64,000 nt of DNA from Cryptomeria japonica (lineage: Eukaryota > Streptophyta > Pinopsida > Cupressales > Cupressaceae), in assembly GCF_030272615.1 (NCBI RefSeq), contig NW_026729181.1, positions 1 through 64,000 on the forward strand. Reading direction: 5' to 3'. The first letter of the stretch is position 1. Each line of letters opens with the position of its first letter. The translations under genes were made by a program, and so were the position numbers. The notes beneath the pieces are model-generated. The model was not told the origin of the DNA. It saw only the letters and a list, made by a program, of their open reading frames with translations, and did not search any database. Shown one piece after another: positions 5,495 through 54,411 of this stretch.

Positions 5495-5613
5495 AGGGTG
5501 CAACACCGGGACTTCCCGGGAGGTCACCCATCCCAGTACTACTCCGGCCCAAGCGCGCTTAACTGCGGAGTTCTGATGGGATCCGGTGCACTAACGCTGG
5601 TATGATCGCACCC
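5495..5613 (-). rRNA. 5S rRNA gene, copy 1
   Basis: A complete 119-nt 5S rRNA on the strand opposite to 26S. Read on the - strand it begins GGGTGCGATCATACCAGCG and ends GGTGTTGCACCC. The internal Pol III promoter is intact: box A (AGTTAAGCGCGCTTGGGC), intermediate element (GGAGTAGTACTGGGATG) and box C (GGGTGACCTCCCGGGAAG). The 5' and 3' ends can form helix I (GGGTGC with GCACCC). A T6 terminator follows at 5490-5495. Base -1 is C, as is usual in plants, but no clear TATA-like box is seen near -28. There are no substitutions at conserved positions, so it is probably functional. Full length plus terminator argues against a 5S promoter captured by a Cassandra-type element. Confidence 0.97.
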
Positions 5614-6002
5614 GTTATGAGCTTGTCGCAGTGTGTACTTAGCAAACCGCGACCCACGTGCGAATCCACCCCGGCCACCCACCCCCGTCGAGGTGCACAC
5701 CCTCCCTCGCGAAGTGCGCCCCGTTCGCCAAGTGTGAGCCCTGCCCGGGTGCGCGCACCTTGCTAGGGCGTCGGGTGTGCACCCGGCCCGGCCTACGTGC
5801 GTGCACCTGGAGGGGGCGTCGTGTGCGTGCAGTGTCCCGTCTGCAACGCGGTGCCCACACACCACCTCGGGCGCAACGACCTGCGCTCACATGTGGGCCG
5901 AGTGCACCTTGGTGCATGTTCGGGGCGCCTCGGGTGCACGCTCGATCTTGCCCCGGTGCACCAAGGCGCTCGGTTTGCCCCGGGTGCGCACTTGGTGCAA
6001 GG
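5614..6002 (+). other. 5' flank of 5S gene and spacer (unit 1; repeated in all units)
   Basis: The first ~45 bp (GTTATGAGCTTGTCGC... to GCAAACCGCGACCC) lie upstream of the 5S start and may hold its external promoter. Only C at -1 and a weakly AT-rich AAGTAC at about -27 to -22 could count as signals. The rest is CpG-rich spacer with GGTGCGCGCACC and GGTGCAC words and no open frame of credible composition. Confidence 0.6.
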
Positions 6003-6345
6003 TGGGCACCCAAAATAGGGATCAAGCACCAAAACACAAGTTTCGGGATGCAAAATGGGACCCAAGGACCACAAATGCGTTCCAAGACCCATGATGGGTC
6101 CACGAGAACAAAAATGTGTTCCGAGACTTAATAAACAAATATTGGGTTTTAGGAGAAGAAACATGCTCTGATGCCCAAAACGAGAATCGACCCCGAAAAG
6201 GCCACAGGCCAAAAGTGGGATGCGAGACAAAAAAAAATGGGACCCGAGGACCAAAATTGGGTTCCCAGGTCGAAGACAGGGCAACCGGACAAGAAACGAC
6301 CTCTAAGGCTCGAAATGAGTCCCGACGACTAAAACTTGACAAGAA
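6003..6345 (+). repeat. Purine-rich degenerate repeat tract (unit 1; repeated in all units)
   Basis: An A- and G-rich stretch built from degenerate words such as GCAAAATGGGACCCAAGGACC, CAAAAATGTGTTCCGAGAC, AAAATGGGACCCGAGGACC and AAACGACCTCTAAGG. It contrasts sharply with the CpG-rich sequence on either side. It contains AATAAACAAATATTGGG (6130-6146) and no credible gene. Origin unknown. It looks like an old short tandem repeat that has diverged. Confidence 0.6.
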
Positions 6346-6862
6346 GCACCCATCAGGCACCCAACTCGACACCCATGGGATGCCGACCCACCCGGGCTTC
6401 CACCTAGCACACCTTGGCACCCACCCACCCTCGCACCCAACCTCGCACCCAACTTAGCACCTTTGAACCCACATTGGCACTCACCCTGACCCTGGCACCT
6501 TGGAACCCACATTGGCACTCACCTTGACCCTGGCACCCACCTTTGCACTCACCTTGGGACCCACCCTGGCTCCCACCTCGGCACCCACCCAGACACCCAC
6601 CTTGGTTCCTTGGCACCCACCTTGGATCCTTGGCACCCACCCCGACACCCACCTTGGCACGCAACTTGGCTACTTGCCACCCACCTTGGCTCCTTGACGC
6701 CCACCCCGACAACCACCCCGTGACCTACCCTGGCTAGGGTTGGTGCACACCCACCCTGGTGCCCACCTTGGCACCCACCCTATGACCCACCTTGGCACGC
6801 ACCTTAGTACCCACCCCGTTACCCACCCTAGGACCCACCCCGTGACCCACCTTGGCCAGGGT
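6346..6862 (+). repeat. CCACC/CTTGGCA minisatellite (unit 1; repeated in all units)
   Basis: Imperfect short repeats of about 10-25 bp with the theme TTGGCACCCACC, with C-runs confined to the + strand and G-runs to the - strand. The tract ends at CCTTGGCCAGGGTGGGTG (6845-6862) and then switches to macrosatellite sequence (CCTTGGTGCGCAC). The - strand has frequent GGGTG spaced by 5-15 nt, so it could form G-quadruplexes or R-loops. Confidence 0.85.
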
Positions 6863-7885
6863 GGGTGCCTTGGTGCGCACAACTTGCCTGGGCTGCACAC
6901 CAGGGCGGGCTCAAGATGGCACCCGCGTTCCGTTTTTTTCACTATCTTTCAAAACGGAAATTTTAAAATCTCATTTTTTTCTTTTTTTTGCCTTTTCTGG
7001 AAATTAGTGAAGGCAGCGCATCAAAGGTGCGCAATGCTGGTGCGAACCCGGGAGCGCTCCGATGTGTGCTCCAAGGTGCGGCGTGCACGAAGTCCGAGCC
7101 CGGTTTGCCCCGGGTGCGCACCTCGCGTGCACCTTCGCCGGGGTGAGCACCTTGGCTGGGTTGCGCGCCCTGGTGCGTACCAAGGAGCGCTCTGAAGTGT
7201 GCTCCAAGGTGCGGCGTGCACGAAGTCGGAGCCCGGTTTGCCCCGGGTGTGCACCTCGGGTGCGCACCTCGCGTGCACCTTCGCTGCGGTGGGCACCTTG
7301 GCTGGGTTGCGCGCCTTGGTGGGCACCATGCAGTGCACGAAGTCGGAGCCCGGTTTGCCCCGGGCGCGCACCTCCGCCAGGGTGGGCACCTTGGTGCGCA
7401 CAACTTGCCTGGGCTGCGCATCAGGAAGGGCTCAAGATGGCACCCGCGTTCCGTTTTTTTCACTATCTTTCAGAACGGAAATTTTAAAATATCGTTTTTT
7501 TTTGCCTTTTCTGGAAATTAGTGAAGGCAGCGCATCAAAGGTGCGCAACGCTGGTGCGAACCTGGGAGCGCTCCGATGTGTGCTCCAAGGTGCGGCGTGC
7601 ACGAAGTCGGAGCCCGGTTTGCCTCGGGTGCGCCCTGGTGGGCACCATGGTGCGCACCAAGGAGCGCTCCGAAGTGTGCTCCAAGGTGCGGCCTGCACGA
7701 AGTCGGAGCCCGGTTTGCCCCGGGTGTGCACCTCGGGTGGGCACCTTGGTGCGCATGCCTTGCCTGGGCTGCGCACCAGGGCGGGCTCAAGATGGCACCC
7801 GCGTTCCTTTTTTTTCACTATCTTTCAAAACGGAAATTTTAAAATCTCATTTTTTTTTGCCTTTTTCTGGAAATTAGTGAAGGCA

Positions 7886-10236
7886 GCGCATCAAAGGTGC
7901 GCACCTCGCTGCCCACCACGGTGCGCAACGCCGGTGGGCACCCGGGAGTGCTTCGAAGTGTGCTCCAAGGTGCTGCGTGCACGTTGTCGGAGCCCGGTTT
8001 GCCCCGGGTGCGCACCTCGCGTGCACCTTCGTCGGGGTGGGCACCTTGGCTTGGTTTGCCCCGGCTGCGCTCCGAAGCGGGGTTATTGGAGCGCCGCCTC
8101 TTTTTTTGTCGGAGCGTTTGGTGGGGTTTCTCGCATTGGCTCTTCCGAGGCCCGGTTGCCACCCTGGCGCGCACGAAGTCGGAAGTAGGGTTAATTGCCC
8201 GGGTGCGCACCTTTGCCAGGGTGGCACCTTACCTGGGCTGCGCACCAGGGCGGGCTCAAGATGGCACGCGCGTTCCGTTTTTTTCACTATCTTTCAAAAC
8301 GGAAATTTTAAAATCTCCTTTTTTTTTTGCCTTTTCTGGAAATTAGTGAAGGCAGCGCATCAAAGGTGCGCACCTCGCTGCCCACCTTGGTGTGCTCTGA
8401 GGTGCGCACCCGGGAGCGCTACGAAGTGTGCTCCAAGGTGCGGCGTGCACGTTGTCGGAGCCCGGTTTGCCCCGGGTGCGCACCTCGCCTGCACCTTGGC
8501 CGGGGTGGGCACCTTGGCTGGGTTTGCCCAGGGTGCGCTCCGAAGCGGGGTTACTGGAGCGCCCCCTCTTTTTTTGTCAGAGAGTTTGGTGGGGTTTCTC
8601 GCATTGGCTCTTCCCAGGCCCGGTTGTTGGGTGCGCTCCCACCCTGGCGCGCGCGAAGTTGGAAGTTGGGTTAATTGCCCGGGCGCGCACCTTCGCCAGG
8701 GTGGGCACCTTGGTGCGCAAACCTTGGCTGGGCTGCGCACCAGGGCGGGCTCAAGATGGCACCAGCATTCCCTTTTTCTCACTATCTTTCAAAACGGAAA
8801 TTTTAAAATCTCGTTTTTTTTTTGCCTTTTATGGAAATTAGTGAAGGCATCGCATCAAAGGTGCGCACCTCGCTGCCCACCTTGGTGTGCTCCGAGGTGC
8901 CCACCACGGTGCGCAACGCCGGTGCGAACCCGGGAGCGCCCCGATGTGTGCTCCAAGGTGCGGCGTGCACGAAGTCGGACCCCGGTTTGCCCCGGGTGCG
9001 CACCTCGCGTGCACCTTGGTGCGCACACCTTGGCTGGGTTGCGCGGCCTGGTGGGCACCATGGTGCGCACCAAGGAGCGCTCCGAAGTGTGCTCCAAGGT
9101 GCGGCGTGCACGAAGTCGGAGCCCGGTTTGCCCCGGGTGCGCACCTTCGCCGCGGTGGGCACCATGGCGTGCACGAAGTCGGAGCCCGGTTTGCCCCGGG
9201 TGCGCACCTCGCGTGCACCTTCGCCGGGGTGGGCACCTCGGCTGGGTTGCGCGCCCTGGTGCGCACCAAGGAGCGCTCTGAAGTGTGCTCCAAGGTGCGG
9301 CGTGCACGAAGTCGGAGCCCGGTTTGCCCCGGGTGTGCACCTCGCGTGCACCTTCGCTGCGGTGGGCACCTTGGCTGGGTTGCGCGCCTTGGTGGGCACC
9401 ATGCAGTGCACGAAGTCGGAGCCCGGTTTGCCCCGGGCGCGCACCTCCGCCAGGGTGGGCACCTTGGTGCGCACAACTTGCCTGGGCTGCGCACCAGGAA
9501 GGGCTCAAGATGGCACCCGCGTTCCGTTTTTTTCACTATCTTTCAGAACGGAAATTTTAAAATATCGTTTTTTTTTGCCTTTTCTGGAAATTAGTGAAGG
9601 CAGCGCATCAAAGGTGCGCAACGCTGGTGCGAACCTGGGAGCGCTCCGATGTGTGCTCCAAGGTGCGGCGTGCACGAAGTCGGACCCCGGTTTGCCCCGG
9701 GTGCGCACCTCGCGTGCACCTTGGTGCGCACACCTTGGCTGGGTTGCGCGCCCTGGTGGGCACCATGGTGCGCACCAAGGAGCGCTCCGAAGTGTGCTCC
9801 AAGGTGCGGCGTGCACGAAGTCGGAGCCCGGTTTGCCCCGGGTGCGCACCTCGCGTGCACCTTCGCCGCGGTGGGCACCATGGCGTGCACGAAGTCGGAG
9901 CCCGGTTTGCCCCGGGTGCGCACCTCGCGTGCACCTTCGCCGGGGTGGGCACCTTAGTGTGCAGACCTTGGCTGGGTTGCGCGCCCTGGTGGGCACCATG
10001 GTGCGCACCAAGGAGCGCTCCGAAGTGTGCTCCAAGGTGCGGCCTGCACGAAGTCGGAGCCCGGTTTGCCCCGGGTGTGCACCTCGGGTGGGCACCTTGG
10101 TGCGCATGCCTTGCCTGGGCTGCGCACCAGGGCGGGCTCAAGATGGCACCCGCGTTCCTTTTTTTTCACTATCTTTCAAAACGGAAATTTTAAAATCTCA
10201 TTTTTTTTTGCCTTTTTCTGGAAATTAGTGAAGGCA
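7886..10236 (+). repeat. 2351-bp internal block (beta-gamma-delta-alpha'), unit 2 copy
   Basis: The block runs from one GCGCACCTCGCTGCCCACCA module start to the next, followed immediately by a second beta set at 10237. The first block of each multi-block unit has diagnostic differences from the terminal set: GGCTTGGTTTGCC instead of GGCTGGGTTTGCC (~8048), a one-base deletion in CCAGGGTGGCACC (~8217), and TCAGAGAGTTTGG instead of TCAGAGCGTTTGG (~8577). These show that first-position blocks descend from each other across units. Confidence 0.9.
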
Positions 10237-13200
10237 GCGCATCAAAGGTGCGCACCTCGCTGCCCACCACGGTGCGCAACGCCGGTGGGCACCCGGGAGT
10301 GCTTCGAAGTGTGCTCCAAGGTGCTGCGTGCACGTTGTCGGAGCCCGGTTTGCCCCGGGTGCGCACCTCGCGTGCACCTTCGTCGGGGTGGGCACCTTGG
10401 CTGGGTTTGCCCCGGCTGCGCTCCGAAGCGGGGTTATTGGAGCGCCGCCTCTTTTTTTGTCGGAGCGTTTGGTGGGGTTTCTCGCATTGGCTCTTCCGAG
10501 GCCCGGTTGCCACCCTGGCGCGCACGAAGTCGGAAGTAGGGTTAATTGCCCGGGTGCGCACCTTTGCCAGGGTGGGCACCTTACCTGGGCTGCGCACCAG
10601 GGCGGGCTCAAGATGGCACGCGCGTTCCGTTTTTTTCACTATCTTTCAAAACGGAAATTTTAAAATCTCCTTTTTTTTTTGCCTTTTCTGGAAATTAGTG
10701 AAGGCAGCGCATCAAAGGTGCGCACCTCGCTGCCCACCTTGGTGTGCTCTGAGGTGCGCACCCGGGAGCGCTACGAAGTGTGCTCCAAGGTGCGGCGTGC
10801 ACGTTGTCGGAGCCCGGTTTGCCCCGGGTGCGCACCTCGCCTGCACCTTGGCCGGGGTGGGCACCTTGGCTGGGTTTGCCCAGGGTGCGCTCCGAAGCGG
10901 GGTTACTGGAGCGCCCCCTCTTTTTTTGTCAGAGCGTTTGGTGGGGTTTCTCGCATTGGCTCTTCCCAGGCCCGGTTGTTGGGTGCGCTCCCACCCTGGC
11001 GCGCGCGAAGTTGGAAGTTGGGTTAATTGCCCGGGCGCGCACCTTCGCCAGGGTGGGCACCTTGGTGCGCACACCTTGGCTGGGCTGCGCACCAGGGCGG
11101 GCTCAAGATGGCACCAGCATTCCCTTTTTCTCACTATCTTTCAAAACGGAAATTTTAAAATCTCGTTTTTTTTTTGCCTTTTATGGAAATTAGTGAAGGC
11201 ATCGCATCAAAGGTGCGCACCTCGCTGCCCACCTTGGTGTGCTCCGAGGTGCCCACCACGGTGCGCAACGCCGGTGCGAACCCGGGAGCGCCCCGATGTG
11301 TGCTCCAAGGTGCGGCGTGCACGAAGTCGGACCCCGGTTTGCCCCGGGTGCGCACCTCGCGTGCACCTTGGTGCGCACACCTTGGCTGGGTTGCGCGGCC
11401 TGGTGGGCACCATGGTGCGCACCAAGGAGCGCTCCGAAGTGTGCTCCAAGGTGCGGCGTGCACGAAGTCGGAGCCCGGTTTGCCCCGGGTACGCACCTCG
11501 CGTGCACCTTCGCCGGGGTGGGCACCTCGGCTGGGTTGCGCGCCCTGGTGCGCACCAAGGAGCGCTCCGAAGTGTGCTCCAAGGTGCGGCGTGCACGAAG
11601 TCGGAGCCCGGTTTGCCCCGGGTGCGCACCTTCGCCGCGGTGCGCACCATGGCGTGCACGAAGTCGGAGCCCGGTTTGCCCCGGGTGCGCACCTCGCGTG
11701 CACCTTCGGCGGGGTTGCGCGCCCTGGTGGGCACCATGGTGCGCACCAAGGAGCGCTCCGAAGTGTGCTCCAAGGTGCGGCGTGCACGAAGTCGGAGCCC
11801 GGTTTGCCCCGGGTGCGCACCTCGCGTGCACCTTCGGCGGGGTTGCGCGCCCTGGTGGGCACCATGGTGCGCACCAAGGAGCGCTCCGAAGTGTGCTCCA
11901 AGGTGCGGCGTGCACGAAGTCGGAGCCCGGTTTGCCCCGGGTGCGCACCTCGCGTGCACCTTCGCCGCGGTGGGCACCATGGCGTGCACGAAGTCGGAGC
12001 CCGGTTTGCCCCGGGTGCGCACCTCGCGTGCACCTTCGCCGGGGTGGGCACCTCGGTTGGGTTGCGCGCCCTGGTGCGCACCAAGGAGCGCTCCGAAGTG
12101 TGCTCCAAGGTGCGGCGTGCACGAAGTCGGAGCCCGGTTTGCCCCGGGTGCGCACCTCGCGTGCACCTTCGCCAGGGTGGGCACCTCGGTGCGCACACCT
12201 TCTCAATGTTTTCTTGCCTTTTCTGGAAATTGGTGAAGGCAGCGCATCAAAGGTGCGCACCTCGGTGTGCTCCGAGGTGCGAACCCGAGAGCGCTCCGAG
12301 GTGCCCACGAAGTCGAAAGTCGGGTTAATTGCATTGTTTTCCCCGGGTGCGCTCCGAGGTGCGCAACATCGGCGCGCACCAAGGAGGGCTCCGAAGTGTG
12401 CTCCAAGGTGCGCACGATGGCGTGCACCTCTGGTGCGCACGATTCGGAGCTCGGTTTGACCGGGGTGCGCACACCTTGGCTGGGTTGCGCACCTTTTGTG
12501 CGCTCCAAGGTGCGCACGAAGTCGGAGCTCGGTTTGCCCCGGGTGCGCACCTTCGCCAGGGTGCGCACCTTGATGCGCACGCCTTGGCTGGGCTGCGCAC
12601 CTTGGTGGGCGCCATGGTGCGCACCTTTCGTGCGCTCCAAGGTGCGCACGAAGTCGGAGCTCGGTTTGCCCCGGGTGCGCACCTTGGTGGGCGCCATGGT
12701 GCACTCCGAGGTGCCCAAGATTGGTGCGCACCAAGGAGCGCTCCGAAGTGCGCTCCAAGGTGCGCGCGAAGTCGAAAGTTGGGTTAATTGTCCGGTTTGC
12801 CTCGGGTGCGCACCTTGCGTGCACCTTCGCCAGGGTGGGCGCCTTGGTGCGCACACCTTGGCTGGGCTGCGCACACCTTGGCACCCGCGTTTCCTTCATT
12901 TTAAATTTTTTTTTTTTACAATCTCTCAAGTGGGAAATTCTATAATCTCAACTTTTTTTGCCTTTTCAGGAAACTTTTGAATGGAGCGCATCATTGGTGC
13001 GCTCCGAAGTGTGCTCCAAAGCTCTCTCCAGCTGCGTGCACCTGCCCCGGCCGCGCACCCGGCCCCGCCCAGCTTCGCTCACCTGTCCCGGGCGTCTGGT
13101 GCGGAACCTTAGAGTAAGAAACATCACCGTGCACCTTGGCCAACGTGCGCGACTCGACCGAGCGCGCACTGGCCGAGGTGCACACCGATTTCACCTGGGT

Positions 13201-13417
13201 GCGCGCGCAGCACCTCGGGCGCACCGGGGTGCGCGCACAACGCCCGGGTTGCACCGTGGCCTGTGTGCTCGGGGCGCCTCGGGTGCGCGCTCGGTGTCGC
13301 CCCCGCGCGCGCGGTAGTGCGGGCAGCGCACCCCGGCCCGGCCCGGCCCCGACGAGAACGCAAACGGGCAAAAGGTTTATTCAAATAGCATTGCGACGCC
13401 CGGCGAAAAACTAAAAA

Positions 13418-13536
13418 AGGGTGCAACACCGGGACTTCCCGGGAGGTCACCCATCCCAGTACTACTCCGGCCCAAGCGCGCTTAACTGCGGAGTTCTGAT
13501 GGGATCCGGTGCACTAACGCTGGTATGATCGCACCC
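13418..13536 (-). rRNA. 5S rRNA gene, copy 2
   Basis: Identical to copy 1 by eye. It lies 7923 bp away in macrosatellite unit 2. T6 terminator at 13413-13418. Confidence 0.97.
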
Positions 13537-15808
13537 GTTATGAGCTTGTCGCAGTGTGTACTTAGCAAACCGCGACCCACGTGCGAATCCACCCCGGCCA
13601 CCCACCCCCGTCGAGGTGCACACCCTCCCTCGCGAAGTGCGCCCCGTTCGCCAAGTGTGAGCCCTGCCCGGGTGCGCGCACCTTGCTAGGGCGTCGGGTG
13701 TGCACCCGGCCCGGCCTACGTGCGTGCACCTGGAGGGGGCGTCGTGTGCGTGCAGTGTCCCGTCTGCAACGCGGTGCCCACACACCACCTCGGGCGCAAC
13801 GACCTGCGCTCACATGTGGGCCGAGTGCACCTTGGTGCATGTTCGGGGCGCCTCGGGTGCACGCTCGATCTTGCCCCGGTGCACCAAGGCGCTCGGTTTG
13901 CCCCGGGTGCGCACTTGGTGCAAGGTGGGCACCCAAAATAGGGATCAAGCACCAAAACACAAGTTTCGGGATGCAAAATGGGACCCAAGGACCACAAATG
14001 CGTTCCAAGACCCATGATGGGTCCACGAGAACAAAAATGTGTTCCGAGACTTAATAAACAAATATTGGGTTTTAGGAGAAGAAACATGCTCTGATGCCCA
14101 AAACGAGAATCGACCCCGAAAAGGCCACAGGCCAAAAGTGGGATGCGAGACAAAAAAAAATGGGACCCGAGGACCAAAATTGGGTTCCCAGGTCGAAGAC
14201 AGGGCAACCGGACAAGAAACGACCTCTAAGGCTCGAAATGAGTCCCGACGACTAAAACTTGACAAGAAGCACCCATCAGGCACCCAACTCGACACCCATG
14301 GGATGCCGACCCACCCGGGCTTCCACCTAGCACACCTTGGCACCCACCCACCCTCGCACCCAACCTCGCACCCAACTTAGCACCTTTGAACCCACATTGG
14401 CACTCACCCTGACCCTGGCACCTTGGAACCCACATTGGCACTCACCTTGACCCTGGCACCCACCTTTGCACTCACCTTGGGACCCACCCTGGCTCCCACC
14501 TCGGCACCCACCCAGACACCCACCTTGGTTCCTTGGCACCCACCTTGGATCCTTGGCACCCACCCCGACACCCACCTTGGCACGCAACTTGGCTACTTGC
14601 CACCCACCTTGGCTCCTTGACGCCCACCCCGACAACCACCCCGTGACCTACCCTGGCTAGGGTTGGTGCACACCCACCCTGGTGCCCACCTTGGCACCCA
14701 CCCTATGACCCACCTTGGCACGCACCTTAGTACCCACCCCGTTACCCACCCTAGGACCCACCCCGTGACCCACCTTGGCCAGGGTGGGTGCCTTGGTGCG
14801 CACAACTTGCCTGGGCTGCACACCAGGGCGGGCTCAAGATGGCACCCGCGTTCCGTTTTTTTCACTATCTTTCAAAACGGAAATTTTAAAATCTCATTTT
14901 TTTCTTTTTTTTGCCTTTTCTGGAAATTAGTGAAGGCAGCGCATCAAAGGTGCGCAATGCTGGTGCGAACCCGGGAGCGCTCCGATGTGTGCTCCAAGGT
15001 GCGGCGTGCACGAAGTCCGAGCCCGGTTTGCCCCGGGTGCGCACCTCGCGTGCACCTTCGCCGGGGTGAGCACCTTGGCTGGGTTGCGCGCCCTGGTGCG
15101 TACCAAGGAGCGCTCTGAAGTGTGCTCCAAGGTGCGGCGTGCACGAAGTCGGAGCCCGGTTTGCCCCGGGTGTGCACCTCGGGTGCGCACCTCGCGTGCA
15201 CCTTCGCTGCGGTGGGCACCTTGGCTGGGTTGCGCGCCTTGGTGGGCACCATGCAGTGCACGAAGTCGGAGCCCGGTTTGCCCCGGGCGCGCACCTCCGC
15301 CAGGGTGGGCACCTTGGTGCGCACAACTTGCCTGGGCTGCGCATCAGGAAGGGCTCAAGATGGCACCCGCGTTCCGTTTTTTTCACTATCTTTCAGAACG
15401 GAAATTTTAAAATATCGTTTTTTTTTGCCTTTTCTGGAAATTAGTGAAGGCAGCGCATCAAAGGTGCGCAACGCTGGTGCGAACCTGGGAGCGCTCCGAT
15501 GTGTGCTCCAAGGTGCGGCGTGCACGAAGTCGGAGCCCGGTTTGCCTCGGGTGCGCCCTGGTGGGCACCATGGTGCGCACCAAGGAGCGCTCCGAAGTGT
15601 GCTCCAAGGTGCGGCCTGCACGAAGTCGGAGCCCGGTTTGCCCCGGGTGTGCACCTCGGGTGGGCACCTTGGTGCGCATGCCTTGCCTGGGCTGCGCACC
15701 AGGGCGGGCTCAAGATGGCACCCGCGTTCCTTTTTTTTCACTATCTTTCAAAACGGAAATTTTAAAATCTCATTTTTTTTTGCCTTTTTCTGGAAATTAG
15801 TGAAGGCA

Positions 15809-21100: not shown

Positions 21101-21343
21101 AGGTGCACACCGATTTCACCTGGGTGCGCGCGCAGCACCTCGGGCGCACCGGGGTGCGCGCACAACGCCCGGGTTGCACCGTGGCCTGTGTGCTCGGGGC
21201 GCCTCGGGTGCGCGCTCGGTGTCGCCCCCCGCGCGCGCGGTAGTGCGGGCAGCGCACCCCGGCCCGGCCCGGCCCCGACGAGAACGCAAACGGGCAAAAG
21301 GTTTATTCAAATAGCATTGCGACGCCCGGCGAAAAACTAAAAA

Positions 21344-21462
21344 AGGGTGCAACACCGGGACTTCCCGGGAGGTCACCCATCCCAGTACTACTCCGGCCCA
21401 AGCGCGCTTAACTGCGGAGTTCTGATGGGATCCGGTGCACTAACGCTGGTATGATCGCACCC
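21344..21462 (-). rRNA. 5S rRNA gene, copy 3
   Basis: Identical to the other copies and 7926 bp from copy 2. T6 terminator at 21339-21344. The 3' flank has one extra C about 115 bp to the left. Confidence 0.97.
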
Positions 21463-29000: not shown

Positions 29001-29266
29001 ACTCGACCGAGCGCGCACTGGCCGAGGTGCACACCGATTTCACCTGGGTGCGCGCGCAGCACCTCGGGCGCACCGGGGTGCGCGCACAACGCCCGGGTTG
29101 CACCGTGGCCTGTGTGCTCGGGGCGCCTCGGGTGCGCGCTCGGTGTCGCCCCCGCGCGCGCGGTAGTGCGGGCAGCGCACCCCGGCCCGGCCCGGCCCCG
29201 ACGAGAACGCAAACGGGCAAAAGGTTTATTCAAATAGCATTGCGACGCCCGGCGAAAAACTAAAAA

Positions 29267-39300: not shown

Positions 39301-39541
39301 GGTGCACACCGATTTCACCTGGGTGCGCGCGCAGCACCTCGGGCGCACCGGGGTGCGCGCACAACGCCCGGGTTGCACCGTGGCCTGTGTGCTCGGGGCG
39401 CCTCGGGTGCGCGCTCGGTGTCGCCCCCGCGCGCGCGGTAGTGCGGGCAGCGCACCCCGGCCCGGCCCGGCCCCGACGAGAACGCAAACGGGCAAAAGGT
39501 TTATTCAAATAGCATTGCGACGCCCGGCGAAAAACTAAAAA

Positions 39542-39660
39542 AGGGTGCAACACCGGGACTTCCCGGGAGGTCACCCATCCCAGTACTACTCCGGCCCAAG
39601 CGCGCTTAACTGCGGAGTTCTGATGGGATCCGGTGCACTAACGCTGGTATGATCGCACCC
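39542..39660 (-). rRNA. 5S rRNA gene, copy 5
   Basis: Identical to the other copies. It lies 10275 bp from copy 4 because of the extra 2352-bp block in unit 5. T6 terminator at 39537-39542. Confidence 0.97.
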
Positions 39661-41932: not shown

Positions 41933-44283
41933 GCGCATCAAAGGTGCGCACCTCGCTGCCCACCACGGTGCGCAACGCCGGTGGGCACCCGGGAGTGCTT
42001 CGAAGTGTGCTCCAAGGTGCTGCGTGCACGTTGTCGGAGCCCGGTTTGCCCCGGGTGCGCACCTCGCGTGCACCTTCGTCGGGGTGGGCACCTTGGCTTG
42101 GTTTGCCCCGGCTGCGCTCCGAAGCGGGGTTATTGGAGCGCCGCCTCTTTTTTTGTCGGAGCGTTTGGTGGGGTTTCTCGCATTGGCTCTTCCGAGGCCC
42201 GGTTGCCACCCTGGCGCGCACGAAGTCGGAAGTAGGGTTAATTGCCCGGGTGCGCACCTTTGCCAGGGTGGCACCTTACCTGGGCTGCGCACCAGGGCGG
42301 GCTCAAGATGGCACGCGCGTTCCGTTTTTTTCACTATCTTTCAAAACGGAAATTTTAAAATCTCCTTTTTTTTTTGCCTTTTCTGGAAATTAGTGAAGGC
42401 AGCGCATCAAAGGTGCGCACCTCGCTGCCCACCTTGGTGTGCTCTGAGGTGCGCACCCGGGAGCGCTACGAAGTGTGCTCCAAGGTGCGGCGTGCACGTT
42501 GTCGGAGCCCGGTTTGCCCCGGGTGCGCACCTCGCCTGCACCTTGGCCGGGGTGGGCACCTTGGCTGGGTTTGCCCAGGGTGCGCTCCGAAGCGGGGTTA
42601 CTGGAGCGCCCCCTCTTTTTTTGTCAGAGAGTTTGGTGGGGTTTCTCGCATTGGCTCTTCCCAGGCCCGGTTGTTGGGTGCGCTCCCACCCTGGCGCGCG
42701 CGAAGTTGGAAGTTGGGTTAATTGCCCGGGCGCGCACCTTCGCCAGGGTGGGCACCTTGGTGCGCAAACCTTGGCTGGGCTGCGCACCAGGGCGGGCTCA
42801 AGATGGCACCAGCATTCCCTTTTTCTCACTATCTTTCAAAACGGAAATTTTAAAATCTCGTTTTTTTTTTGCCTTTTATGGAAATTAGTGAAGGCATCGC
42901 ATCAAAGGTGCGCACCTCGCTGCCCACCTTGGTGTGCTCCGAGGTGCCCACCACGGTGCGCAACGCCGGTGCGAACCCGGGAGCGCCCCGATGTGTGCTC
43001 CAAGGTGCGGCGTGCACGAAGTCGGACCCCGGTTTGCCCCGGGTGCGCACCTCGCGTGCACCTTGGTGCGCACACCTTGGCTGGGTTGCGCGGCCTGGTG
43101 GGCACCATGGTGCGCACCAAGGAGCGCTCCGAAGTGTGCTCCAAGGTGCGGCGTGCACGAAGTCGGAGCCCGGTTTGCCCCGGGTGCGCACCTTCGCCGC
43201 GGTGGGCACCATGGCGTGCACGAAGTCGGAGCCCGGTTTGCCCCGGGTGCGCACCTCGCGTGCACCTTCGCCGGGGTGGGCACCTCGGCTGGGTTGCGCG
43301 CCCTGGTGCGCACCAAGGAGCGCTCTGAAGTGTGCTCCAAGGTGCGGCGTGCACGAAGTCGGAGCCCGGTTTGCCCCGGGTGTGCACCTCGCGTGCACCT
43401 TCGCTGCGGTGGGCACCTTGGCTGGGTTGCGCGCCTTGGTGGGCACCATGCAGTGCACGAAGTCGGAGCCCGGTTTGCCCCGGGCGCGCACCTCCGCCAG
43501 GGTGGGCACCTTGGTGCGCACAACTTGCCTGGGCTGCGCACCAGGAAGGGCTCAAGATGGCACCCGCGTTCCGTTTTTTTCACTATCTTTCAGAACGGAA
43601 ATTTTAAAATATCGTTTTTTTTTGCCTTTTCTGGAAATTAGTGAAGGCAGCGCATCAAAGGTGCGCAACGCTGGTGCGAACCTGGGAGCGCTCCGATGTG
43701 TGCTCCAAGGTGCGGCGTGCACGAAGTCGGACCCCGGTTTGCCCCGGGTGCGCACCTCGCGTGCACCTTGGTGCGCACACCTTGGCTGGGTTGCGCGCCC
43801 TGGTGGGCACCATGGTGCGCACCAAGGAGCGCTCCGAAGTGTGCTCCAAGGTGCGGCGTGCACGAAGTCGGAGCCCGGTTTGCCCCGGGTGCGCACCTCG
43901 CGTGCACCTTCGCCGCGGTGGGCACCATGGCGTGCACGAAGTCGGAGCCCGGTTTGCCCCGGGTGCGCACCTCGCGTGCACCTTCGCCGGGGTGGGCACC
44001 TTTGTGTGCAGACCTTGGCTGGGTTGCGCGCCCTGGTGGGCACCATGGTGCGCACCAAGGAGCGCTCCGAAGTGTGCTCCAAGGTGCGGCCTGCACGAAG
44101 TCGGAGCCCGGTTTGCCCCGGGTGTGCACCTCGGGTGGGCACCTTGGTGCGCATGCCTTGCCTGGGCTGCGCACCAGGGCGGGCTCAAGATGGCACCCGC
44201 GTTCCTTTTTTTTCACTATCTTTCAAAACGGAAATTTTAAAATCTCATTTTTTTTTGCCTTTTTCTGGAAATTAGTGAAGGCA
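41933..44283 (+). repeat. 2351-bp internal block, unit 6 copy
   Basis: First-position type with the diagnostic variants, ending in an alpha' that carries CACCTTTGTGTG as in unit 5. Confidence 0.9.
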
Positions 44284-47200
44284 GCGCATCAAAGGTGCGC
44301 ACCTCGCTGCCCACCACGGTGCGCAACGCCGGTGGGCACCCGGGAGTGCTTCGAAGTGTGCTCCAAGGTGCTGCGTGCACGTTGTCGGAGCCCGGTTTGC
44401 CCCGGGTGCGCACCTCGCGTGCACCTTCGTCGGGGTGGGCACCTTGGCTGGGTTTGCCCCGGCTGCGCTCCGAAGCGGGGTTATTGGAGCGCCGCCTCTT
44501 TTTTTGTCGGAGCGTTTGGTGGGGTTTCTCGCATTGGCTCTTCCGAGGCCCGGTTGCCACCCTGGCGCGCACGAAGTCGGAAGTAGGGTTAATTGCCCGG
44601 GTGCGCACCTTTGCCAGGGTGGGCACCTTACCTGGGCTGCGCACCAGGGCGGGCTCAAGATGGCACGCGCGTTCCGTTTTTTTCACTATCTTTCAAAACG
44701 GAAATTTTAAAATCTCCTTTTTTTTTTGCCTTTTCTGGAAATTAGTGAAGGCAGCGCATCAAAGGTGCGCACCTCGCTGCCCACCTTGGTGTGCTCTGAG
44801 GTGCGCACCCGGGAGCGCTACGAAGTGTGCTCCAAGGTGCGGCGTGCACGTTGTCGGAGCCCGGTTTGCCCCGGGTGCGCACCTCGCCTGCACCTTGGCC
44901 GGGGTGGGCACCTTGGCTGGGTTTGCCCAGGGTGCGCTCCGAAGCGGGGTTACTGGAGCGCCCCCTCTTTTTTTGTCAGAGCGTTTGGTGGGGTTTCTCG
45001 CATTGGCTCTTCCCAGGCCCGGTTGTTGGGTGCGCTCCCACCCTGGCGCGCGCGAAGTTGGAAGTTGGGTTAATTGCCCGGGCGCGCACCTTCGCCAGGG
45101 TGGGCACCTTGGTGCGCACACCTTGGCTGGGCTGCGCACCAGGGCGGGCTCAAGATGGCACCAGCATTCCCTTTTTCTCACTATCTTTCAAAACGGAAAT
45201 TTTAAAATCTCGTTTTTTTTTTGCCTTTTATGGAAATTAGTGAAGGCATCGCATCAAAGGTGCGCACCTCGCTGCCCACCTTGGTGTGCTCCGAGGTGCC
45301 CACCACGGTGCGCAACGCCGGTGCGAACCCGGGAGCGCCCCGATGTGTGCTCCAAGGTGCGGCGTGCACGAAGTCGGACCCCGGTTTGCCCCGGGTGCGC
45401 ACCTCGCGTGCACCTTGGTGCGCACACCTTGGCTGGGTTGCGCGGCCTGGTGGGCACCATGGTGCGCACCAAGGAGCGCTCCGAAGTGTGCTCCAAGGTG
45501 CGGCGTGCACGAAGTCGGAGCCCGGTTTGCCCCGGGTACGCACCTCGCGTGCACCTTCGCCGGGGTGGGCACCTCGGCTGGGTTGCGCGCCCTGGTGCGC
45601 ACCAAGGAGCGCTCCGAAGTGTGCTCCAAGGTGCGGCGTGCACGAAGTCGGAGCCCGGTTTGCCCCGGGTGCGCACCTTCGCCGCGGTGCGCACCATGGC
45701 GTGCACGAAGTCGGAGCCCGGTTTGCCCCGGGTGCGCACCTCGCGTGCACCTTCGGCGGGGTTGCGCGCCCTGGTGGGCACCATGGTGCGCACCAAGGAG
45801 CGCTCCGAAGTGTGCTCCAAGGTGCGGCGTGCACGAAGTCGGAGCCCGGTTTGCCCCGGGTGCGCACCTCGCGTGCACCTTCGGCGGGGTTGCGCGCCCT
45901 GGTGGGCACCATGGTGCGCACCAAGGAGCGCTCCGAAGTGTGCTCCAAGGTGCGGCGTGCACGAAGTCGGAGCCCGGTTTGCCCCGGGTGCGCACCTCGC
46001 GTGCACCTTCGCCGCGGTGGGCACCATGGCGTGCACGAAGTCGGAGCCCGGTTTGCCCCGGGTGCGCACCTCGCGTGCACCTTCGCCGGGGTGGGCACCT
46101 CGGCTGGGTTGCGCGCCCTGGTGCGCACCAAGGAGCGCTCCGAAGTGTGCTCCAAGGTGCGGCGTGCACGAAGTCGGAGCCCGGTTTGCCCCGGGTGCGC
46201 ACCTCGCGTGCACCTTCGCCAGGGTGGGCACCTCGGTGCGCACACCTTCTCAATGTTTTCTTGCCTTTTCTGGAAATTGGTGAAGGCAGCGCATCAAAGG
46301 TGCGCACCTCGGTGTGCTCCGAGGTGCGAACCCGAGAGCGCTCCGAGGTGCCCACGAAGTCGAAAGTCGGGTTAATTGCATTGTTTTCCCCGGGTGCGCT
46401 CCGAGGTGCGCAACATCGGCGCGCACCAAGGAGGGCTCCGAAGTGTGCTCCAAGGTGCGCACGATGGCGTGCACCTCTGGTGCGCACGATTCGGAGCTCG
46501 GTTTGACCGGGGTGCGCACACCTTGGCTGGGTTGCGCACCTTTTGTGCGCTCCAAGGTGCGCACGAAGTCGGAGCTCGGTTTGCCCCGGGTGCGCACCTT
46601 CGCCAGGGTGCGCACCTTGATGCGCACGCCTTGGCTGGGCTGCGCACCTTGGTGGGCGCCATGGTGCGCACCTTTCGTGCGCTCCAAGGTGCGCACGAAG
46701 TCGGAGCTCGGTTTGCCCCGGGTGCGCACCTTGGTGGGCGCCATGGTGCACTCCGAGGTGCCCAAGATTGGTGCGCACCAAGGAGCGCTCCGAAGTGCGC
46801 TCCAAGGTGCGCGCGAAGTCGAAAGTTGGGTTAATTGTCCGGTTTGCCTCGGGTGCGCACCTTGCGTGCACCTTCGCCAGGGTGGGCGCCTTGGTGCGCA
46901 CACCTTGGCTGGGCTGCGCACACCTTGGCACCCGCGTTTCCTTCATTTTAAATTTTTTTTTTTTACAATCTCTCAAGTGGGAAATTCTATAATCTCAACT
47001 TTTTTTGCCTTTTCAGGAAACTTTTGAATGGAGCGCATCATTGGTGCGCTCCGAAGTGTGCTCCAAAGCTCTCTCCAGCTGCGTGCACCTGCCCCGGCCG
47101 CGCACCCGGCCCCGCCCAGCTTCGCTCACCTGTCCCGGGCGTCTGGTGCGGAACCTTAGAGTAAGAAACATCACCGTGCACCTTGGCCAACGTGCGCGAC

Positions 47201-47464
47201 TCGACCGAGCGCGCACTGGCCGAGGTGCACACCGATTTCACCTGGGTGCGCGCGCAGCACCTCGGGCGCACCGGGGTGCGCGCACAACGCCCGGGTTGCA
47301 CCGTGGCCTGTGTGCTCGGGGCGCCTCGGGTGCGCGCTCGGTGTCGCCCCCGCGCGCGCGGTAGTGCGGGCAGCGCACCCCGGCCCGGCCCGGCCCCGAC
47401 GAGAACGCAAACGGGCAAAAGGTTTATTCAAATAGCATTGCGACGCCCGGCGAAAAACTAAAAA

Positions 47465-47583
47465 AGGGTGCAACACCGGGACTTCCCGGGAGGTCACCCA
47501 TCCCAGTACTACTCCGGCCCAAGCGCGCTTAACTGCGGAGTTCTGATGGGATCCGGTGCACTAACGCTGGTATGATCGCACCC
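47465..47583 (-). rRNA. 5S rRNA gene, copy 6
   Basis: Identical to the other copies and 7923 bp from copy 5. T6 terminator at 47460-47465. Confidence 0.97.
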
Positions 47584-48985
47584 GTTATGAGCTTGTCGCA
47601 GTGTGTACTTAGCAAACCGCGACCCACGTGCGAATCCACCCCGGCCACCCACCCCCGTCGAGGTGCACACCCTCCCTCGCGAAGTGCGCCCCGTTCGCCA
47701 AGTGTGAGCCCTGCCCGGGTGCGCGCACCTTGCTAGGGCGTCGGGTGTGCACCCGGCCCGGCCTACGTGCGTGCACCTGGAGGGGGCGTCGTGTGCGTGC
47801 AGTGTCCCGTCTGCAACGCGGTGCCCACACACCACCTCGGGCGCAACGACCTGCGCTCACATGTGGGCCGAGTGCACCTTGGTGCATGTTCGGGGCGCCT
47901 CGGGTGCACGCTCGATCTTGCCCCGGTGCACCAAGGCGCTCGGTTTGCCCCGGGTGCGCACTTGGTGCAAGGTGGGCACCCAAAATAGGGATCAAGCACC
48001 AAAACACAAGTTTCGGGATGCAAAATGGGACCCAAGGACCACAAATGCGTTCCAAGACCCATGATGGGTCCACGAGAACAAAAATGTGTTCCGAGACTTA
48101 ATAAACAAATATTGGGTTTTAGGAGAAGAAACATGCTCTGATGCCCAAAACGAGAATCGACCCCGAAAAGGCCACAGGCCAAAAGTGGGATGCGAGACAA
48201 AAAAAAATGGGACCCGAGGACCAAAATTGGGTTCCCAGGTCGAAGACAGGGCAACCGGACAAGAAACGACCTCTAAGGCTCGAAATGAGTCCCGACGACT
48301 AAAACTTGACAAGAAGCACCCATCAGGCACCCAACTCGACACCCATGGGATGCCGACCCACCCGGGCTTCCACCTAGCACACCTTGGCACCCACCCACCC
48401 TCGCACCCAACCTCGCACCCAACTTAGCACCTTTGAACCCACATTGGCACTCACCCTGACCCTGGCACCTTGGAACCCACATTGGCACTCACCTTGACCC
48501 TGGCACCCACCTTTGCACTCACCTTGGGACCCACCCTGGCTCCCACCTCGGCACCCACCCAGACACCCACCTTGGTTCCTTGGCACCCACCTTGGATCCT
48601 TGGCACCCACCCCGACACCCACCTTGGCACGCAACTTGGCTACTTGCCACCCACCTTGGCTCCTTGACGCCCACCCCGACAACCACCCCGTGACCTACCC
48701 TGGCTAGGGTTGGTGCACACCCACCCTGGTGCCCACCTTGGCACCCACCCTATGACCCACCTTGGCACGCACCTTAGTACCCACCCCGTTACCCACCCTA
48801 GGACCCACCCCGTGACCCACCTTGGCCAGGGTGGGTGCCTTGGTGCGCACAACTTGCCTGGGCTGCACACCAGGGCGGGCTCAAGATGGCACCCGCGTTC
48901 CGTTTTTTTCACTATCTTTCAAAACGGAAATTTTAAAATCTCATTTTTTTCTTTTTTTTGCCTTTTCTGGAAATTAGTGAAGGCA

Positions 48986-51900
48986 GCGCATCAAAGGTGC
49001 GCAATGCTGGTGCGAACCCGGGAGCGCTCCGATGTGTGCTCCAAGGTGCGGCGTGCACGAAGTCCGAGCCCGGTTTGCCCCGGGTGCGCACCTCGCGTGC
49101 ACCTTCGCCGGGGTGAGCACCTTGGCTGGGTTGCGCGCCCTGGTGCGTACCAAGGAGCGCTCTGAAGTGTGCTCCAAGGTGCGGCGTGCACGAAGTCGGA
49201 GCCCGGTTTGCCCCGGGTGTGCACCTCGGGTGCGCACCTCGCGTGCACCTTCGCTGCGGTGGGCACCTTGGCTGGGTTGCGCGCCTTGGTGGGCACCATG
49301 CAGTGCACGAAGTCGGAGCCCGGTTTGCCCCGGGCGCGCACCTCCGCCAGGGTGGGCACCTTGGTGCGCACAACTTGCCTGGGCTGCGCATCAGGAAGGG
49401 CTCAAGATGGCACCCGCGTTCCGTTTTTTTCACTATCTTTCAGAACGGAAATTTTAAAATATCGTTTTTTTTTGCCTTTTCTGGAAATTAGTGAAGGCAG
49501 CGCATCAAAGGTGCGCAACGCTGGTGCGAACCTGGGAGCGCTCCGATGTGTGCTCCAAGGTGCGGCGTGCACGAAGTCGGACCCCGGTTTGCCTCGGGTG
49601 CGCCCTGGTGGGCACCATGGTGCGCACCAAGGAGCGCTCCGAAGTGTGCTCCAAGGTGCGGCCTGCACGAAGTCGGAGCCCGGTTTGCCCCGGGTGTGCA
49701 CCTCGGGTGGGCACCTTGGTGCGCATGCCTTGCCTGGGCTGCGCACCAGGGCGGGCTCAAGATGGCACCCGCGTTCCTTTTTTTTCACTATCTTTCAAAA
49801 CGGAAATTTTAAAATCTCATTTTTTTTTGCCTTTTTCTGGAAATTAGTGAAGGCAGCGCATCAAAGGTGCGCACCTCGCTGCCCACCACGGTGCGCAACG
49901 CCGGTGGGCACCCGGGAGTGCTTCGAAGTGTGCTCCAAGGTGCTGCGTGCACGTTGTCGGAGCCCGGTTTGCCCCGGGCGCGCACCTCGCGTGCACCTTC
50001 GTCGGGGTGGGCACCTTGGCTGGGTTTGCCCCGGCTGCGCTCCGAAGCGGGGTTATTGGAGCGCCGGCTCTTTTTTTGTCGGAGCGTTTGGTGGGGTTTC
50101 TCGCATTGGCTCTTCCGAGGCCCGGTTGCCACCCTGGCGCGCACGAAGTCGGAAGTAGGGTTAATTGCCCGGGTGCGCACCTTTGCCAGGGTGGGCACCT
50201 TACCTGGGCTGCGCACCAGGGCGGGCTCAAGATGGCACGCGCGTTCCGTTTTTTTCACTATCTTTCAAAACGGAAATTTTAAAATCTCCTTTTTTTTTTG
50301 CCTTTTCTGGAAATTAGTGAAGGCAGCGCATCAAAGGTGCGCACCTCGCTGCCCACCTTGGTGTGCTCTGAGGTGCGCACCCGGGAGCGCTACGAAGTGT
50401 GCTCCAAGGTGCGGCGTGCACGTTGTCGGAGCCCGGTTTGCCCCGGGTGCGCACCTCGCCTGCACCTTGGCCGGGGTGGGCACCTTGGCTGGGTTTGCCC
50501 AGGGTGCGCTCCGAAGCGGGGTTACTGGAGCGCCCCCTCTTTTTTTGTCAGAGCGTTTGGTGGGGTTTCTCGCATTGGCTCTTCCCAGGCCCGGTTGTTG
50601 GGTGCGCTCCCACCCTGGCGCGCGCGAAGTTGGAAGTTGGGTTAATTGCCCGGGCGCGCACCTTCGCCAGGGTGGGCACCTTGGTGCGCACACCTTGGCT
50701 GGGCTGCGCACCAGGGCGGGCTCAAGATGGCACCAGCATTCCCTTTTTCTCACTATCTTTCAAAACGGAAATTTTAAAATCTCGTTTTTTTTTTGCCTTT
50801 TATGGAAATTAGTGAAGGCATCGCATCAAAGGTGCGCACCTCGCTGCCCACCTTGGTGTGCTCCGAGGTGCCCACCACGGTGCGCAACGCCGGTGCGAAC
50901 CCGGGAGCGCCCCGATGTGTGCTCCAAGGTGCGGCGTGCACGAAGTCGGACCCCGGTTTGCCCCGGGTGCGCACCTCGCGTGCACCTTGGTGCGCACACC
51001 TTGGCTGGGTTGCGCGGCCTGGTGGGCACCATGGTGCGCACCAAGGAGCGCTCCGAAGTGTGCTCCAAGGTGCGGCGTGCACGAAGTCGGAGCCCGGTTT
51101 GCCCCGGGTACGCACCTCGCGTGCACCTTCGCCGGGGTGGGCACCTCGGCTGGGTTGCGCGCCCTGGTGCGCACCAAGGAGCGCTCCGAAGTGTGCTCCA
51201 AGGTGCGGCGTGCACGAAGTCGGAGCCCGGTTTGCCCCGGGTGCGCACCTTCGCCGCGGTGCGCACCATGGCGTGCACGAAGTCGGAGCCCGGTTTGCCC
51301 CGGGTGCGCACCTCGCGTGCACCTTCGGCGGGGTTGCGCGCCCTGGTGGGCACCATGGTGCGCACCAAGGAGCGCTCCGAAGTGTGCTCCAAGGTGCGGC
51401 GTGCACGAAGTCGGAGCCCGGTTTGCCCCGGGTGCGCACCTCGCGTGCACCTTCGGCGGGGTTGCGCGCCCTGGTGGGCACCATGGTGCGCACCAAGGAG
51501 CGCTCCGAAGTGTGCTCCAAGGTGCGGCGTGCACGAAGTCGGAGCCCGGTTTGCCCCGGGTGCGCACCTCGCGTGCACCTTCGCCGCGGTGGGCACCATG
51601 GCGTGCACGAAGTCGGAGCCCGGTTTGCCCCGGGTGCGCACCTCGCGTGCACCTTCGCCGGGGTGGGCACCTCGGCTGGGTTGCGCGCCCTGGTGCGCAC
51701 CAAGGAGCGCTCCGAAGTGTGCTCCAAGGTGCGGCGTGCACGAAGTCGGAGCCCGGTTTGCCCCGGGTGCGCACCTCGCGTGCACCTTCGCCAGGGTGGG
51801 CACCTCGGTGCGCACACCTTCTCAATGTTTTCTTGCCTTTTCTGGAAATTGGTGAAGGCAGCGCATCAAAGGTGCGCACCTCGGTGTGCTCCGAGGTGCG

Positions 51901-54411
51901 AACCCGAGAGCGCTCCGAGGTGCCCACGAAGTCGAAAGTCGGGTTAATTGCATTGTTTTCCCCGGGTGCGCTCCGAGGTGCGCAACATCGGCGCGCACCA
52001 AGGAGGGCTCCGAAGTGTGCTCCAAGGTGCGCACGATGGCGTGCACCTCTGGTGCGCACGATTCGGAGCTCGGTTTGACCGGGGTGCGCACACCTTGGCT
52101 GGGTTGCGCACCTTTTGTGCGCTCCAAGGTGCGCACGAAGTCGGAGCTCGGTTTGCCCCGGGTGCGCACCTTCGCCAGGGTGCGCACCTTGATGCGCACG
52201 CCTTGGCTGGGCTGCGCACCTTGGTGGGCGCCATGGTGCGCACCTTTCGTGCGCTCCAAGGTGCGCACGAAGTCGGAGCTCGGTTTGCCCCGGGTGCGCA
52301 CCTTGGTGGGCGCCATGGTGCACTCCGAGGTGCCCAAGATTGGTGCGCACCAAGGAGCGCTCCGAAGTGCGCTCCAAGGTGCGCGCGAAGTCGAAAGTTG
52401 GGTTAATTGTCCGGTTTGCCTCGGGTGCGCACCTTGCGTGCACCTTCGCCAGGGTGGGCGCCTTGGTGCGCACACCTTGGCTGGGCTGCGCACACCTTGG
52501 CACCCGCGTTTCCTTCATTTTAAATTTTTTTTTTTTACAATCTCTCAAGTGGGAAATTCTATAATCTCAACTTTTTTTGCCTTTTCAGGAAACTTTTGAA
52601 TGGAGCGCATCATTGGTGCGCTCCGAAGTGTGCTCCAAAGCTCTCTCCAGCTGCGTGCACCTGCCCCGGCCGCGCACCCGGCCCCGCCCAGCTTCGCTCA
52701 CCTGTCCCGGGCGTCTGGTGCGGAACCTTAGAGTAAGAAACATCACCGTGCACCTTGGCCAACGTGCGCGACTCGACCGAGCGCGCACTGGCCGAGGTGC
52801 ACACCGATTTCACCTGGGTGCGCGCGCAGCACCTCGGGCGCACCGGGGTGCGCGCACAACGCCCGGGTTGCACCGTGGCCTGTGTGCTCGGGGCGCCTCG
52901 GGTGCGCGCTCGGTGTCGCCCCCCGCGCGCGCGGTAGTGCGGGCAGCGCACCCCGGCCCGGCCCGGCCCCGACGAGAACGCAAACGGGCAAAAGGTTTAT
53001 TCAAATAGCATTGCGACGCCCGGCGAAAAACTAAAAAAGGGTGCAACACCGGGACTTCCCGGGAGGTCACCCATCCCAGTACTACTCCGGCCCAAGCGCG
53101 CTTAACTGCGGAGTTCTGATGGGATCCGGTGCACTAACGCTGGTATGATCGCACCCGTTATGAGCTTGTCGCAGTGTGTACTTAGCAAACCGCGACCCAC
53201 GTGCGAATCCACCCCGGCCACCCACCCCCGTCGAGGTGCACACCCTCCCTCGCGAAGTGCGCCCCGTTCGCCAAGTGTGAGCCCTGCCCGGGTGCGCGCA
53301 CCTTGCTAGGGCGTCGGGTGTGCACCCGGCCCGGCCTACGTGCGTGCACCTGGAGGGGGCGTCGTGTGCGTGCAGTGTCCCGTCTGCAACGCGGTGCCCA
53401 CACACCACCTCGGGCGCAACGACCTGCGCTCACATGTGGGCCGAGTGCACCTTGGTGCATGTTCGGGGCGCCTCGGGTGCACGCTCGATCTTGCCCCGGT
53501 GCACCAAGGCGCTCGGTTTGCCCCGGGTGCGCACTTGGTGCAAGGTGGGCACCCAAAATAGGGATCAAGCACCAAAACACAAGTTTCGGGATGCAAAATG
53601 GGACCCAAGGACCACAAATGCGTTCCAAGACCCATGATGGGTCCACGAGAACAAAAATGTGTTCCGAGACTTAATAAACAAATATTGGGTTTTAGGAGAA
53701 GAAACATGCTCTGATGCCCAAAACGAGAATCGACCCCGAAAAGGCCACAGGCCAAAAGTGGGATGCGAGACAAAAAAAAATGGGACCCGAGGACCAAAAT
53801 TGGGTTCCCAGGTCGAAGACAGGGCAACCGGACAAGAAACGACCTCTAAGGCTCGAAATGAGTCCCGACGACTAAAACTTGACAAGAAGCACCCATCAGG
53901 CACCCAACTCGACACCCATGGGATGCCGACCCACCCGGGCTTCCACCTAGCACACCTTGGCACCCACCCACCCTCGCACCCAACCTCGCACCCAACTTAG
54001 CACCTTTGAACCCACATTGGCACTCACCCTGACCCTGGCACCTTGGAACCCACATTGGCACTCACCTTGACCCTGGCACCCACCTTTGCACTCACCTTGG
54101 GACCCACCCTGGCTCCCACCTCGGCACCCACCCAGACACCCACCTTGGTTCCTTGGCACCCACCTTGGATCCTTGGCACCCACCCCGACACCCACCTTGG
54201 CACGCAACTTGGCTACTTGCCACCCACCTTGGCTCCTTGACGCCCACCCCGACAACCACCCCGTGACCTACCCTGGCTAGGGTTGGTGCACACCCACCCT
54301 GGTGCCCACCTTGGCACCCACCCTATGACCCACCTTGGCACGCACCTTAGTACCCACCCCGTTACCCACCCTAGGACCCACCCCGTGACCCACCTTGGCC
54401 AGGGTGGGTGC
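48986..54411 (+). repeat. 5S-bearing macrosatellite, unit 7 (contracted; last unit, merges into minisatellite)
   Basis: Only one beta-gamma-delta set (from 49856) is present, so the 5S-to-5S distance to unit 6 is 5573 bp instead of 7923. Identity with the other units stops at 54411: they switch from GGCCAGGGTGGGTG to CCTTGGTGCGCAC and the next AT linker, whereas this one continues in CCACC minisatellite. It shares the GGGCGCGCACC variant (~49976) with the third beta set of unit 5 and the extra C of GTCGCCCCCC (~52917) with unit 3. Private changes include GGACCCCGGTTTGCCTCGGG (~49579) and GCGCCGGCTC (~50061). Confidence 0.9.
53038..53156 (-). rRNA. 5S rRNA gene, copy 7 (last)
   Basis: Identical to the other copies. 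It lies only 5573 bp from copy 6 because unit 7 has a single beta-gamma-delta set. T6 terminator at 53033-53038. It is the 5S nearest to the Pol I promoters, about 2.7 kb from the first promoter copy. Confidence 0.97.

Follow-up and report, generated by a model that had tools for sequence, protein, structure and literature searches.

Seven intact 5S rRNA genes on a macrosatellite in an apparent 35S rDNA spacer of Cryptomeria japonica

In algae, mosses, some Asteraceae and some gymnosperms, 5S rRNA genes are well known to be linked to 35S rDNA (PMC3409069, PMC4075780, PMC6526317). The DNA analyzed here, a stretch of 64,000 nucleotides from Cryptomeria japonica (hereafter the window), raises the question of how many 5S genes a linked spacer can hold and in what state they are kept. 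A covariance search against all Rfam families returned eight matches in the window, consisting of the 3' end of one large-subunit rRNA and seven 5S rRNAs. The 26S match (RF02543, 129.5 bits, model positions 3115-3401) lies on the plus strand at positions 1 to 290, where the gene is cut by the start of the window.

All seven 5S matches covered the complete RF00001 model (positions 1-120, E=1.7e-23), and every copy scored 110.8 bits compared to a gathering score of 38 bits. The genes are located on the minus strand at positions 5,495-5,613, 13,418-13,536, 21,344-21,462, 29,267-29,385, 39,542-39,660, 47,465-47,583 and 53,038-53,156, and direct comparison showed that their 119-bp sequence was identical in all copies. 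As originally predicted, box A, IE, box C and a T6 terminator were all present in this shared sequence. Box A (AGTTAAGCGCGCTTG), the IE (CCGGAG) and box C (GGGATGGGTG, at +80) occupied the places expected in a 5S gene, and box C fitted the plant consensus RGSWTGGGTG. The 3' end of the gene is formed by a run of six T residues followed by AGTTTTT; in the first copy this terminator tract spans positions 5,483-5,495 of the minus strand (T6 including the last base of the gene, AG, then T5), and the tract is the same in all copies. By their full-length RF00001 match, internal control region and T-run terminator, the seven sequences have the features expected of cytosolic 5S genes.

The upstream region was less typical. 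The base immediately preceding the gene is a C, a TAAGTA motif is found at -28 to -23, where plants usually carry a TATA-like box, and the GC dinucleotide occupies -9/-8 instead of -12. The predicted 5S RNA fold had a closed terminal helix and an energy of -48.1 kcal/mol, which is weak evidence when taken alone because it differed from that of shuffled sequences by a z score of only -1.56. A sensitive search of the whole window detected no degenerate or partial 5S sequence beyond the seven genes. The plant 5S sequence had no match in the viral and prokaryotic contigs that were scanned, and none in a literature search.

The absence of differences among copies had been emphasized in the original prediction. 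This was confirmed for the 119 bp of the gene but did not stand as evidence of selection, as the flanks were likewise identical. All copies remained identical across no fewer than 118 bp beyond the 3' end of the gene. To the right, counted from the gene 3' end, they agreed over at least 1,374 bp, a stretch made up of the gene and upwards of 1.2 kb of its 5' flank. Within a 1,974-bp block around each 5S gene, variation amounted to SNPs at two sites plus three indel events. At the rate of this block and without selection, a 119-bp segment would be expected to contain approximately 0.3 variable events, and the probability of observing none is 74%. Because the flanks are as identical as the genes, the lack of variation among the seven genes is little guide to selection; it appears to reflect homogenisation too recent for selection to be demonstrated. 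The functional evidence resides in the single shared sequence being an intact 5S gene and not in the identity between copies.

Successive 5S genes were separated by 7,923, 7,926, 7,923, 10,275, 7,923 and 5,573 bp, and the corresponding units carried 2, 2, 2, 3, 2 and 1 copies of a nested 2,351-bp subrepeat. The macro-units thus differ in length because they differ in the number of whole 2.35-kb subrepeats. Macro-unit 3 (positions 21,344-29,266, 7,923 bp) was used as the reference, and the full-length internal units were 99.94-99.99% identical to it. Unit 1 (5,495-13,417, 7,923 bp), composed of the 5S block and two subrepeats, was 99.975% identical; unit 2 (13,418-21,343, 7,926 bp) was 99.94% identical; and unit 5 (39,542-47,464, 7,923 bp) was 99.987% identical. 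Unit 4 (29,267-39,541, 10,275 bp) has a third subrepeat and unit 6 (47,465-53,037, 5,573 bp) has one. On the right, a partial unit 7 (53,038-54,411) matched the start of the other units at 100% over its first 1,374 bp, 5S gene included, and then diverged. On the left, a partial repeat adjoining the 26S gene (1,228-5,494) and lacking an upstream 5S gene was a diverged edge copy, 98.9% identical to positions 3672-7923 of unit 3 compared to at least 99.9% for the internal units. The original prediction of one 5S gene in each of seven large repeats was accordingly correct as to one gene per macro-repeat, but the repeats are not uniform; the array comprises six unequal inter-5S units and two partial ends. 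A homogenised interior with a decaying edge would be the usual picture of such an array, and the length changes by whole subrepeats suggest that copy number changes through unequal exchange. The further proposal that 5S number rises and falls with the macrosatellite gains support from these unit lengths, which already vary by whole subrepeats. A strong bias in T-runs was also noted for positions 1-55,000 (154 T7 runs on the plus strand of the window versus 7 A7 runs), and it sits in a recurring motif, TTTTTTTCACTATCTTTCAAAACGGAAATTTTAAAATCTC...TTTTTTTTTGCC, within the subrepeats.

The sequences on either side of the array bear on whether it occupies a single 35S spacer. Between the 26S gene and the array, Tandem Repeats Finder (TRF) identified spacer minirepeats of approximately 83, 60 and 141 bp at positions 579-971. 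To the right, a degenerate C-rich tract of CACCC and ACCTTGG elements (54,412-55,620, GC skew -0.48 to -0.32) connects the 5S array to a promoter-like array; a similar C-rich tract follows each 5S gene. Thirteen Pol I-promoter-like motifs with the core ACAAATARCTTATATAGGGGA were located between positions 55,867 and 60,002, all on the plus strand and none on the minus strand. The motif reads ACAAATA(A/G)CTTATATAGGGGA, with the first occurrence at 55,867 and the last at 59,993. The core was 86-100% identical among the 13 copies and the flanks mostly 34-70%, and a conserved core amid divergent flanks is what would be expected of reiterated plant TATA-type Pol I promoters. The Pol I start of Podocarpus elongatus is of the TATA type (PMC4043768). 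The most distal motif (59,993) is likely the gene promoter and the others are likely spacer promoters. The 13 motifs (TATATAGGGG core) form families with 157-bp and 311-bp periods, and as candidate spacer promoters they are unusually numerous. From the end of the 26S gene to the most distal promoter-like motif (290-59,993) the distance is approximately 59.7 kb.

Beyond the promoter-like motifs, TRF identified approximately 19 copies of a 188-bp tandem repeat on the plus strand (60,358-63,996), which probably represent the 5' external transcribed spacer (ETS) preceding an 18S gene beyond the window. If so, the 188-bp repeats may be transcribed in every pre-rRNA. The Rfam search detected no 18S in the 64,000 nucleotides. 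The original placement of the array inside one 35S spacer is therefore made probable by the 26S gene on the left and by the Pol I-promoter-like and ETS-like sequences on the right, but the 18S gene itself would lie outside the window. Short inverted-repeat units (AAGTGCGCACCTTTGGAGCGCAGAAAAGTGCCCTCC...) at positions 56,880-57,480 yield spurious microRNA-family matches; microRNA and small-RNA Rfam matches at 55.6-61 kb were rejected, being far under their gathering scores and originating from inverted or tandem repeats. The observed/expected CpG ratio, taken as an indicator of long-term methylation, gave no information, as it was near 1 throughout the window; it rose slightly beside the 5S genes (1.2-1.3), and the C-rich tract alone had low values.

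Seven intact 5S genes on one strand, set in nested repeats between a 26S gene and promoter- and ETS-like sequence, point to a probable linked (L-type) 5S-35S unit, a familiar organisation that is taken unusually far here because the 5S gene is part of a homogenised macrosatellite within the spacer. The original interpretation was supported in part. An S-type organisation of these seven genes was ruled out by the 7.9-kb period and by the 26S and Pol I-promoter-like flanks, as opposed to tandems with short spacers. The usual L-type content of one 5S gene or a short tandem per spacer, which does not define the class, was replaced here by seven genes over 47.7 kb. That such content is the norm had been part of the original prediction, and plant reports agree, for example in Ephedra altissima (PMC6526317). 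The prediction had also called attention to the antisense orientation of the genes. All seven are indeed on the minus strand, but this is not distinctive, as L-type units usually carry the 5S gene on the opposite strand (PMC3095306, PMC3409069, PMC10138776). The orientation is unsurprising because it is the rule for linked 5S genes in Asteraceae (PMC3095306, PMC3409069) and is ordinary for spacer 5S genes in yeast, turtles, crocodiles and notothenioid fish (PMC10138776).

Several known systems resemble the locus in part. In Artemisia and other Asteraceae, as apparently here, the spacer between 26S and 18S holds the 5S gene; as here, that gene is oriented opposite to the 26S gene and has intact Pol III elements (PMC3095306, PMC3409069). 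Most L-type genomes have the 5S gene within approximately 1 kb of the 26S gene (PMC3409069); the Asteraceae spacers are short, with the gene no more than about 1 kb from 26S, whereas the first 5S gene here is 5.2 kb away and the seven are distributed across 47.7 kb. The NOR-5S genes of notothenioid fish, turtles and crocodiles share an opposite-strand position in the spacer, near 28S and among repeats, but notothenioid fish have one 5S gene per spacer plus canonical 5S genes elsewhere (PMC10138776), compared to seven per spacer in our sequence. Large repetitive spacers and linked 5S genes are documented in gymnosperms (PMC6526317, PMC4075780). Features of the 5S sequence and the length of the spacer here probably fit a gymnosperm host. 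The Ephedra L-type unit is similar in belonging to a gymnosperm, in having several 5S sequences per spacer and minisatellite flanks, and in being homogenised (PMC6526317). In E. altissima, three 5S sequences lie 9 bp apart, and one is functional and two are truncated pseudogenes (PMC6526317), whereas here there are seven intact genes with a period of approximately 7.9 kb and no pseudogene.

Among gymnosperms, 5S-35S linkage is also shared with Podocarpus and Ginkgo, the subject of work by Garcia and Kovarik in 2013 and Galian in 2012. According to Garcia and Kovarik, the 5S genes of Ephedra and Ginkgo are reportedly on the same strand as 35S; those of Podocarpus are reportedly on the opposite strand, as in this window. 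The 5S genes of Podocarpus and Ginkgo reportedly occur as single insertions or short tandems, and complete long spacers are not known to have been described in that work. Linkage in both genera is cited in PMC4075780. The difference lies in the number and spacing, seven intact 5S genes over 47.7 kb at intervals of approximately 8 kb; linkage and strand were already known. No comparable spacer with multiple spread 5S genes was found in the literature searched, a provisional result in that the main gymnosperm linkage studies fell outside that search.

We consider it probable that unequal crossing-over multiplied a segment of an L-type spacer bearing a single 5S gene on the opposite strand, each unit keeping an intact Pol III gene. 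One such gene would have entered an ancestral spacer, and amplification of the surrounding segment would have produced a macrosatellite of approximately 7.9-kb units, which recombination or exchange between spacers would keep alike. The 99.9% identity of the interior units, the 98.9% identity of the edge copy and the whole-subrepeat changes are the expected trace of unequal exchange. Pol III would read each 5S gene toward the 26S gene, and Pol I would initiate downstream of the 5S array, from the reiterated promoters (55.9-60.0 kb). Because of this downstream initiation, Pol I would not need to cross the 5S array, barring read-through from 26S. Because every macro-unit retains an intact Pol III gene, one rDNA unit could supply several 5S templates. 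Activity of these copies is plausible because the linked genes of Asteraceae are expressed (PMC3409069), and they are the transcribed ones in that family (PMC3095306, PMC3409069). Against this explanation, the -28 box is only TAAGTA-like, the GC dinucleotide is displaced, and a single rDNA unit was seen.

With a single spacer in view, the unit could be atypical, either a variant that has expanded or an orphan unit from the margin of the nucleolar organiser, with most rDNA units having short spacers and one 5S gene. Subrepeat number varies from one to three inside this one spacer, so spacer length is plainly unstable. The interior homogeneity and the ordered anatomy of 26S, spacer promoters and ETS-like sequence, however, resemble a normal unit, and we regard an atypical unit as unlikely; other rDNA units would probably carry the same arrangement.

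Alternatively, the 5S copies could be passengers of the satellite, intact at the time of a recent amplification and largely silent, with 5S rRNA supplied mainly by an S-type locus. Recent homogenisation alone accounts for the identity of the copies, some Asteraceae genomes carry both linked and unlinked 5S genes (PMC3095306), and the units of Ephedra carry 5S pseudogenes along (PMC6526317). Yet all seven genes retain the full Rfam score, internal promoter and T6 run, and there is no decayed 5S in the window, whereas silent spacer relics in Asteraceae show mutated boxes and lack terminators (PMC3095306). We therefore judge silent passengers unlikely.

A near-identical repeat is a classic source of copy-number error, and the assembler could have added copies to a true spacer with fewer macro-repeats. 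Exact repeats in the window reach at most 6,351 bp, which is below the length of typical long accurate reads, and private SNPs, indels and whole subrepeats distinguish the units; such reads could for these reasons resolve the array. Both flanks of the array are unique, and two adjacent units would suffice for the main finding. Expansion by assembly is thus quite improbable. An origin as part of Cassandra-type retrotransposon LTRs, which contain 5S sequence (PMC3095306), was rejected as scarcely conceivable, since no LTR pair surrounds the 5S gene, the tRNA-Met primer site is absent except for one motif with 2 mismatches once per unit, a terminator directly follows the gene where Cassandra has none (PMC3095306), the 5S score is full, and nine large ORFs tested gave no Pfam match to transposon proteins or other domains. 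As none of the nine matched Pfam, the large ORFs look like artefacts of composition.

The amplified L-type spacer, if representative, would bear on gene dosage. A 5S:35S ratio of approximately 7 is an extrapolation from one spacer, and it would not be biologically extreme because gnetophyte copy numbers give ratios from about 1.5 to 34. From the 5S and 18S copies per 1C in PMC6526317 (Table 2), we computed ratios of 1.5 for Welwitschia (3,800/2,500), 2.5 for Ephedra altissima (15,000/6,000) and 34 for Gnetum montanum (105,200/3,100). Complete gymnosperm spacers have been beyond reconstruction in published short-read work (PMC6526317).

We tentatively suggest, at slightly under an even chance, that every 5S gene of this lineage belongs to a multi-copy macrosatellite within 35S spacers, such that a variable satellite sets the number of templates per unit and the two gene families co-evolve as one locus. 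If true, both families would expand, contract and homogenise together, and a Pol III gene would tolerate amplification within a spacer of approximately 60 kb; whole mammalian rDNA units, at 35-45 kb (PMC11373518), are shorter than the distance from 26S to promoter here. A frequent reading of linked 5S-35S units is that they hold the two genes at a one-to-one dosage. Should units with several 5S genes be the rule, linkage would not mean equal dosage, and 5S number could drift with the spacer satellite.
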